Source: Asanoa ishikariensis
Lineage (GTDB): Bacteria; Actinomycetota; Actinomycetes; Mycobacteriales; Micromonosporaceae
NCBI RefSeq assembly: GCF_900107455.1
Contig: NZ_FNQB01000003.1
Location: 1,674,001 to 1,738,000, forward strand
Length of the DNA: 64,000 nucleotides
Direction: 5' to 3'
Made by a program: the position numbers and the translations under genes. Position 1 is the first letter of the stretch. Each line of letters begins with the position of its first letter. The notes under the pieces are model-generated. The model ran no database searches, had not been told where the DNA came from, and saw only the letters and a list, made by a program, of their open reading frames with translations. Below, in pieces: positions 38,510 through 40,126 of this stretch.

Positions 38510-40126
38510 CTAGCGGCTGGACCGCGACGCACTCTTCCGGGCGGCCGACTTGCGGATCGGGCTGGTCGCCCGCGCCGTCGAGCTCGTCCGCCGAGCCGCA
38601 CTCGTCGTCTTCCGCACCGCAGAGGTAGACCTACGCGCCGCCGAGGTGGACCTGCGCGCCGCCGATGTGGACTTGCGGCCCGTGGTCGACTTGCGCGCCG
38701 TGCTCGACTTGCGGGCGGCGCCGGCGCGGGCCGTGCTGGCCTTGCGCGCGGTGCCGGACCGGCGGGCCGGACCCGTGGATGCCTTGCGGGGCGCGGTCGA
38801 CTTCCGGGCCGTCGTCGACTTGCGCGTGGCCGGTGCCTTGCGCGCCGTCGTCGACTTCCGCGCGGTCGTGGCCTTGCGGCCCGCCGTCGACGTACGCGCC
38901 GTCGTGGCCTTGCGACCAGTCGTCTTCCGCGCCGTCGTCGCCTTGGCCGCCGTCGACTTGCTCGGCGTCGCCGCCTTGCTCGCCGTGGTCGCCTTACGCG
39001 CGGTCGTGGACTTGCGGGCGGTCGTGGACTTGCGCGCCGTCGTGGACTTACGAGCCGTCGTCGACTTGCCCGCCGCAGCGGACTTGCTCGCCGCAGCGGA
39101 CTTCCGGGCCGTCGTCGACTTACGAGCCGTCGTCGACTTGCTCGCCGCCGCGGACTTGCGCGCCGTCGAGGCCTTGGTGGCCTTGCGCGGCGTGGCCGAC
39201 TTGGTCGCCTTGCGGGCACCGCTCGGGCCAGACGCGGCCTTGCGTGCCGTCGACGCCTTGCGCGTGCCACCGGCCGAGGTCGACTTGCCCGCGGCAGACG
39301 CCTTGCGCGTGCCACCGGCCGAAGCCGTCTTGCGGGCGGTCGACGCCGTCTTCCGGGCGCCACCGGCGCTGGTCACCGAGCGCCCGTCGCGGGCCTGCGG
39401 CGACGCGAGCACCGCGCCGATGATGCCGGCATTGTTGAGCAGCATCGCCGGTACGACCTCGGTCTCGATGTCGAGCCGGTCCAGGAAGCTGTCGGACTTG
39501 CGGCTCACCCCGCCACCGACGATGAACAGGTCGGGGCTGAGGAGCTGCTCGAGATGCTGGAGGTACTTGCGGACCCGCTTGGACCACGCACCCCAGCCGA
39601 GGTCCTCGTCCTGGCGCACCCGGGCCGCCGCGCGCTTCTCCGCGTCGACGCCGTGCATCTTGATGTGGCCGAACTCGGTGTTGGGCATGAGCATGCCGTC
39701 CATGAAGACGGCGCTGCCGATGCCGGTGCCGAAGGTCAGCATCACGACCTTGCCCTTGCGGCCCTTGCCCGCACCGAACTCCATCTCCGCCATGCCGGCG
39801 GCGTCGGCGTCGTTGATGAGCGCGACGGGGGCGTGCAGCTCCTGCGAGAAGAGCTTGGCCCCCTCGGTGTTCATCCACGACTTGTCGACGTTGGCCGCGG
39901 TGCGGACGACACCGTTCTGGATCACGCCTGGGAAAGTGATGCCGACGCGCTGTGGCCGGGTCTTGAAGTGGCGAACCACCTCGCCGACCGCCGCGACGAC
40001 ACTCTTCACGTTGGAAGGCTGCGGCGTATCCACCCGGAAGCGTTCACCGGTCAGCTCGCCACGCCTCATGTCGACCAGCGCGCCCTTGATGCCCGAGCCG
40101 CCGATGTCAATGCCGATAACCGCCAT
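38510..40126 (-). CDS. ppgK: Polyphosphate glucokinase fused to a histone-like basic tail
   Basis: Residues 1-248 are a complete ROK-type polyphosphate/ATP glucokinase: 'GIDIGGSGIKGALVD' phosphate loop, 'PGVIQNGVVRTAANVD', catalytic Asp106 in 'INDADAAG', and 'TFGTGIGSA'. It phosphorylates glucose using polyphosphate or ATP. Residues 249-538 are a tail built of TARKS/TTARKSTTARK-type units with 'SAARRST' near the end. After D247 there is no acidic and no aromatic residue. Normal PpgK stops near 250-270 residues. The tail resembles histone-H1-like or HupS-type DNA-binding tails and could bind polyphosphate or DNA. The frame is intact, so this is a real fusion, not a read-through. Confidence 0.92.
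   Translation of the reverse strand: MAVIGIDIGGSGIKGALVDMRRGELTGERFRVDTPQPSNVKSVVAAVGEVVRHFKTRPQRVGITFPGVIQNGVVRTAANVDKSWMNTEGAKLFSQELHAPVALINDADAAGMAEMEFGAGKGRKGKVVMLTFGTGIGSAVFMDGMLMPNTEFGHIKMHGVDAEKRAAARVRQDEDLGWGAWSKRVRKYLQHLEQLLSPDLFIVGGGVSRKSDSFLDRLDIETEVVPAMLLNNAGIIGAVLASPQARDGRSVTSAGGARKTASTARKTASAGGTRKASAAGKSTSAGGTRKASTARKAASGPSGARKATKSATPRKATKASTARKSAAASKSTTARKSTTARKSAAASKSAAAGKSTTARKSTTARKSTTARKSTTARKATTASKAATPSKSTAAKATTARKTTGRKATTARTSTAGRKATTARKSTTARKAPATRKSTTARKSTAPRKASTGPARRSGTARKASTARAGAARKSSTARKSTTGRKSTSAARRSTSAARRSTSAVRKTTSAARRTSSTARATSPIRKSAARKSASRSSR

Follow-up and report, generated by a model that had tools for sequence, protein, structure and literature searches.

A long cationic tail on the polyphosphate glucokinase of Asanoa: its conservation, its apparently single origin and a possible role as a polyphosphate tether

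Introduction

What might a long cationic tail do for a polyphosphate glucokinase (PpgK), and is such a tail truly part of the protein? This question is raised by ppgK of Asanoa ishikariensis (Micromonosporaceae), which lies in a stretch of 64,000 nucleotides (assembly GCF_900107455.1, contig NZ_FNQB01000003.1, positions 1,674,001 to 1,738,000). The whole of this stretch is referred to as the window in this work. The initial annotation of the window described a PpgK domain that is followed in the same frame by a histone-like tail, and it proposed that the tail could tether the kinase to polyphosphate (polyP) granules or to DNA. In our judgement, how bacteria target enzymes to polyP granules and how PpgK uses long chains are little understood.

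Results and Discussion

The catalytic domain of PpgK

The features of the ppgK locus are listed in Table 1.

Table 1. Coordinates of the features of the ppgK locus in the window.
Feature	Position	Strand	Remarks
ppgK frame	38510-40126	(-)	538 residues; 38513-40126 translates without an internal stop
PpgK catalytic domain (ROK/PolPhglucPhase)	39401..40126	(-)	Residues 1-242
Cationic tail	38513..39382	(-)	Residues 249-538, 290 aa, same frame as the PpgK domain
18-bp tandem repeat array in the tail	38796..39168	(-)	Tandem Repeats Finder, 21 copies, 71% match, about six residues per unit
27-residue tail core	38765..38845	(-)	Residues 428-454, starts ARKAPATR
Stop codon of ppgK (TAG)	38510..38512	(-)	
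Hairpin, possible transcription terminator	38456..38504	(-)	Directly 3' of the stop; no T run
Membrane protein upstream of ppgK	40179-42239		No Pfam match
Ser/Thr kinase gene	45673-47118	Opposite to ppgK	Pkinase PF00069, 162 bits

The complete PpgK domain that had been placed ahead of the tail in the initial annotation is confirmed by both profile and fold. Residues 4-242 score 336 bits on NF045942 (polyphosphate--glucose phosphotransferase equivalog), for which the cut-off is 250, and the Pfam ROK profile matches the domain with 82 bits. The domain matches 1WOQ by sequence at 3.2e-80, and 1WOQ is also the nearest fold in Foldseek (TMt 0.92, rmsd 1.4, 53% identity). The AlphaFold2 model that was built from a 51-row alignment has pLDDT values of 89-98 per ten-residue block over residues 1-240. 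N105, D106, E151, G153, and H154 are unchanged across 51 aligned sequences; we take the Asp of NDAD and the Glu and His of EFGH to be the active-site motifs of PpgK.

The Pfam scan of the whole tailed protein returned ROK as the sole domain, with the HU domain (PF00216) absent before the tail. No second close PpgK was found in the genome, where the next match has just 34% identity. Among named relatives, A. hainanensis is the closest when PpgK is compared, with 97% identity. The calculated mass of the full-length protein is 55.6 kDa, and it would be 26.6 kDa if the protein ended near residue 250.

The catalytic domains of Asanoa (four rows) carry net charges of +2, +3, -1, and +2, which are less negative than those of the 47 other catalytic domains (mean -7.9, sd 3.8, max 2). 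The four Asanoa rows also have in common K at position 156, where the others mostly have E, and E at position 221, where the others mostly have R. These rows belong to a single lineage, and the loss of domain charge is therefore not independent evidence.

The tail and the end of its gene

The coordinates and the length of 290 residues that had been claimed for the tail are exact, and the claimed absence of Asp, Glu, and aromatic residues from the tail in the window is borne out (0 D, E, F, W, or Y). His and Cys are also absent from it. Strict absence of acidic residues does not extend to all Asanoa tails, since two of the six carry them (one in G001 and three in G005). The tail in the window consists mainly of A (74), T (58), S (51), R (43), and K (38), with a net charge of +81 and basic doublets that mostly recur at intervals of five to six residues. 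Ser and Thr together number 109 in this tail and 98-217 per tail across Asanoa. The tail is predicted to be disordered: the AlphaFold2 model scores 36-51 per ten-residue block from residue 251 and has no secondary structure from residue 249.

No further copies of the tail were found in the genome by protein search (E 0.01). The codon pattern of ARKxxxARK occurs at seven places in the genome, six of which are in the PpgK tail and one in a free H1-like protein. The longest tail, that of G001 (L089:3983-5791), has grown to 603 residues via repeated units around SRVTATGAVRKSASAARK that lie 3' of the conserved core.

The hairpin that follows the stop codon in the window has a folding energy of -41.5 kcal/mol (z -6.3), which none of 200 shuffles equalled; the shuffles were made for the window alone. 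Five of the six Asanoa species have a hairpin that starts no more than about ten bases from the stop, with energies of -33.5 to -44.8 kcal/mol; the corresponding value in G005 is -16.2. The hairpin is absent from the output of the consensus terminator scan, and the promoter scan returned no match. The position of the hairpin past the distal stop makes this stop the likely end of both gene and transcript.

An antisense frame of 823 residues (38550-41021, (+)) overlaps both the tail and the domain of ppgK, and it has no stop over the tail in five of the six species. A crude GC3 gene caller favoured this frame over ppgK. A Pfam search with this frame gave no match at E 1, and the antisense reading was rejected because the sense strand holds the PpgK homology and the constraint described below. 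The antisense frame is therefore regarded as a by-product of composition.

Distribution and origin of the tail

The tail is present in all six Asanoa genomes examined, namely the window genome (G000) and five congeners. Its length is 290 residues in G000, 269 in G002, 287 in G003, 279 in G004, 603 in G001, and 389 in G005. PpgK was matched in 119 of the 300 genomes of a family sample (E 1e-50). At E 1e-40 it was matched in 217 of 298 genomes of an order sample and in 88 of 396 genomes of a phylum sample; the samples overlap. The tail was found in none of the 79 non-Asanoa actinobacterial PpgK loci that were read, which span 241-283 residues between the aligned start and the stop. Those 79 loci include every row with an open frame of at least 445 residues among the matches listed, and the remaining rows were judged from the reported open frame alone, by which a shorter tail would be missed. 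Long open frames outside Asanoa were considered as tailed PpgKs, and those read were rejected as upstream extensions.

Of the 84 loci with a readable frame, 63 were placed together with the window in a tree of 64 rows. The six tailed PpgKs cluster together with an SH-aLRT of 100, on a stem that is long (0.46), and one gain therefore suffices. Judging from these sequences, the tail was apparently gained once, in the ancestor of Asanoa. The search for tailed homologues and the mapping of tail length on a phylogeny, which had been suggested in the initial annotation, thus find tailed PpgKs, among the loci read, in Asanoa alone, as one group with tails of 269-603 residues. Untailed relatives of PpgK reach 64% identity.

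The origin of the tail by fusion with an adjacent H1-like gene was considered and rejected. One strongly cationic frame was found beside ppgK in the 79 untailed loci (mostly 3.7 kb), at locus L071, and this is too little to name the source of the tail. The frame at L071, which belongs to an untailed relative and lies downstream of its ppgK, has 495 residues, is Lys/Ala-rich, and contains a KKTAAKKAPAKK stretch; judged by eye, it is perhaps the N-terminus of the sigma factor known beside ppgK in other actinobacteria. No cationic frames were found near ppgK in five untailed loci of greater length (15-18 kb).

Around ppgK, the genes come in the same order in four other Asanoa regions, G003 having been left out for its short contig. 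Ten other genes of the window were tested in five untailed relatives, and none was found near ppgK. A search of 101 family genomes for the membrane protein encoded upstream of ppgK matched its N-terminal half in 14, of which five are Asanoa. Its C-terminal part is Gly/Ala/Pro/Ser-rich, and the best aligned piece of the protein covers 46-74% in four other Asanoa. Five of the nine non-Asanoa places of this membrane protein, taken as 10-kb stretches, hold none of the ten other window genes and no cationic frame. On the other side of ppgK, the window has a frame of 965 residues (34985-37882, (-)) whose N-terminus is weakly DivIVA-like (E 0.077, below cut-off). The rest of this frame is mostly Gly/Ser/Ala/Pro-rich, and its best aligned piece covers just 16-29% of its length in four other Asanoa.

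Constraint on the tail

The tail in the window has a GC3 of 0.90, compared with 0.92 in the catalytic part. GC1 falls from 0.67 in the catalytic part to 0.48 in the tail, which is as expected because Lys, Ser, and Thr codons are enriched. Across species, the GC3 of the tail is 0.90 in five and 0.83 in G004.

For the closest pair (G000 and G002), dN/dS amounts to 0.215 over the tail, compared with 0.145 over the catalytic part. The remaining 14 pairs give 0.29-0.69 in the tail; repeat alignments are uncertain beyond the closest pair, and these values are weaker evidence. In each of the 15 pairs, the value is higher in the tail than in the domain. The dS of the closest pair is also higher in the tail (0.367) than in the domain (0.126), so that repeat turnover or misalignment plays a part and the dN/dS figure is weakened.

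A neutral null was constructed for three of the pairs with G000 by placing the observed number and types of nucleotide changes randomly in 2000 runs. The residue changes in the tail are below every null run in all three pairs: 38 against a null minimum of 52 (G002), 90 against 106 (G003), and 76 against 92 (G001). No acidic residue is seen in the pair G000-G003, where the null gives a mean of 7.3 and a minimum of 1. The null mean is 2.5 for G000-G002 and 6.7 for G000-G001, a pair with one acidic residue seen. Some runs of both these nulls give zero, and avoidance of acidic residues alone is therefore clear in one of the three pairs. The exchanges in the tail are largely between Ala, Ser, Thr, and Gly.

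All six tails have a nine-residue word in common, where the maximum in 500 block shuffles was seven. In the 27-residue core, 23 residues are identical in all six Asanoa species, and 14 of those 23 show synonymous codon variation. Constraint on the tail concerns its classes of residues (Lys/Arg, Ser/Thr, and Ala/Gly, with very few acidic ones) and a short core, whereas tail length drifts. With its presence in six of six Asanoa, fewer changes than under the neutral null, and a conserved core, the tail is genuine and selectively kept.

Likeness of the tail to H1-like and HU proteins

The likeness to histone H1 and HupS that had been proposed for the tail holds for its class of composition, but it does not hold for residue usage or for the HC2 profile. 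The tail of PpgK is Arg- and Ser-rich, with R/(K+R) of 0.53 and S/(S+T) of 0.47, whereas the tail of the HU protein in the same genome is Lys/Ala-rich, with 0.14 for both ratios. The HC2 profile (PF07382) was compared with the six tails: five gave no match up to E 10, and one gave E 3 with 8.3 bits against a cut-off of 40. As a control, the free H1-like protein of the genome matches the same profile at 77.7 bits. NCBIfam returned no match on the tail in the window, and KPAA is absent from each of the six Asanoa tails. The richness in Arg and Ser, the absence of KPAA, and the lack of an HC2 match therefore make this a likeness in physics rather than one of demonstrable descent.

The free-standing H1-like protein has 252 residues (L101:1132-1887; C2, near 2527900), and a frame that resembles an RNB-type RNase by eye lies downstream of it. 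The sole HU match in the genome carries an AK-rich tail and is separated from PPK1 by about 4.5 kb (L129:827-8259; C4, 1012326-1019758). The proximity of HU and PPK1 is known from mycobacteria. Directly after PPK1 and on the same strand, a CYTH-CHAD protein is encoded (CHAD 184.6 bits; L129:827-8259), in which CHAD is presumably a polyP-binding module.

Possible functions of the tail

We give close to an even chance to the reading that the tail would tether the kinase electrostatically to polyP and raise its retention and processivity. The C-terminus of PpgK has apparently become, once in the Asanoa ancestor, a long polycation that is predicted to be disordered. This polycation would bind polyanions, foremost polyP as the own substrate of the enzyme, so that the kinase would stay bound to long chains or polyP granules. 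Many glucose-6-phosphates could then be formed per encounter, with retention and processivity both raised, as lysine repeats hold TopA on DNA. Affinity for DNA would be a likely side effect that may put the enzyme where granules meet the nucleoid.

The substrate of PpgK is a polyanion, and retention on the substrate is therefore the most economical role, with the tether acting on the substrate directly. AlgP on polyP granules and TopA on DNA are precedents for such a tether. Also in favour are the intact catalytic domain, which belongs to an equivalog family that uses polyP, the presence of the tail in all six Asanoa with a single change of state on the tree, and its coding constraint and predicted disorder. 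Mycobacterial PpgK is described as quasi-processive. One PPK1 and three PPK2 places were found in the genome, by which it is, on gene content, able to make polyP. Several points count against the polyP tether. A tail of +81 is expected to bind DNA and RNA too, and its sequence does not single out polyP. The tail is not needed for the reaction, since all 79 non-Asanoa loci are without it. The length of the tail varies from 269 to 603 residues with a repeat array inside it, and the loss of charge in the domain could mean a general drift of charge.

A more specific version is entertained only tentatively, in which the polycation may have made PpgK a resident of polyP granules. Phosphorylation would then be processive and located at the granule, perhaps with a bridge between granule and nucleoid, and the 27-residue core would be a specific docking element.

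The chief rival is DNA. The tail would be a tether to the nucleoid of the H1/HupS sort, its binding of polyP would be incidental, and it would place glucose phosphorylation at the nucleoid or compact DNA. The tail is of the same composition class as the free H1-like protein (HC2, PF07382) and the AK-tailed HU of the genome. Passages of PMC9239181 describe KPAA peptides that bind DNA in vitro, and they place AlgP, whose puncta need polyP kinases, on the nucleoid when those kinases are missing. PolyP and DNA could therefore easily compete. However, the tail differs from the H1-like and HU proteins in its use of R over K and S over T and has no HC2 match, and we are aware of no reason for a glucokinase to be on DNA. 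A DNA tether is thus rather unlikely as the main role.

It is improbable that the tail is a near-neutral appendage, one that repeat slippage has lengthened at the C-terminus and from which selection purges only acidic and hydrophobic residues with no gain of function. The 18-bp array, the range of lengths within one genus, and the higher dN/dS of the tail in all 15 pairs would be expected of it. The presence of the tail in six of six species, the core that keeps 23 of its 27 residues despite synonymous change, and residue changes below any neutral run in three of three pairs argue for the contrary. It can also be argued that a burden of about 290 residues and a charge of +81 would invite loss.

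Quite improbable is a tail that binds RNA or ribosomes, or one that is a phospho- or acetyl-acceptor and controls whether the enzyme is attached to the polyanion. The very high content of Ser and Thr in every tail is in its favour, and so is the Ser/Thr kinase gene 5.5 kb off, which is at the same place in all four other Asanoa loci compared. Acetylation has been suggested for the lysine repeats of TopA in passages of PMC7398561. However, no site, interaction, or operon link is at hand, and the kinase gene is on the opposite strand with four predicted genes between. The initial annotation had proposed the tail as a target of this kinase; the kinase domain is real, but proximity is all that ties it to the tail.

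It is hardly credible that the protein is in truth only about 250 residues long, whether by a missed stop, a frame shift, or processing, or that the other strand is read, although proteolysis is conceivable: the short untailed proteins of the 79 loci and the choice of the antisense frame by the gene caller would agree with such an artefact, but the sense frame is open in six of six assemblies, continuous with the PpgK domain, and under constraint, with a hairpin past the distal stop in five of six, and the antisense frame is without a Pfam match.

The tailed PpgKs of Asanoa and their untailed relatives, together with six natural tail lengths, make the role of a cationic disordered tail on an enzyme that consumes a polyanion directly testable. 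The tail could also serve as a tag that anchors enzymes on polyP in ATP-free biocatalysis.

Comparison with known systems

We know of no PpgK with a comparable tail. A tailed PpgK was also not found in the open-access literature at the level of titles, the starts of abstracts, and passages of PMC4252912, which is no proof of its being unpublished.

The PpgK of Asanoa has the same catalytic domain, fold, motifs, and NF045942 match as the Arthrobacter glucomannokinase (1WOQ), and it differs from the other PpgKs by its tail, which is lacking in 79 of 79 non-Asanoa loci. HupS-type HU and HC2/H1-like proteins are DNA-binding proteins. Like the tail of PpgK, they have cationic Ala/Thr-rich tails that are almost free of acidic residues; unlike PpgK, they are dominated by Lys and have no enzyme domain.

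AlgP of Pseudomonas aeruginosa and PhaF resemble the PpgK of Asanoa in their long disordered cationic repeat tails, and AlgP is tied to polyP granules. Both proteins are presented in passages of PMC9239181 as storage-granule proteins with histone H1-like KPAA tails. AlgP is described there as a polyP-granule protein with an H1-like KPAA domain, and deletion of its tail disturbs the size and spacing of granules. In contrast to the PpgK of Asanoa, AlgP and PhaF are not glucokinases, and their repeats are of the Lys/Pro/Ala (KPAA) type.

Actinobacterial TopA is, like the PpgK of Asanoa, an enzyme that acts on a polyanion and carries C-terminal H1-like cationic repeats. According to passages of PMC7398561, the lysine repeats of Streptomyces TopA stabilise the enzyme on DNA and confer processivity. 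TopA differs in its DNA substrate, its Lys-rich repeats, and the experimental proof of its tail function. Both halves of the tailed PpgK are of known kinds; what is new to us is that they are combined, apparently from a single origin.
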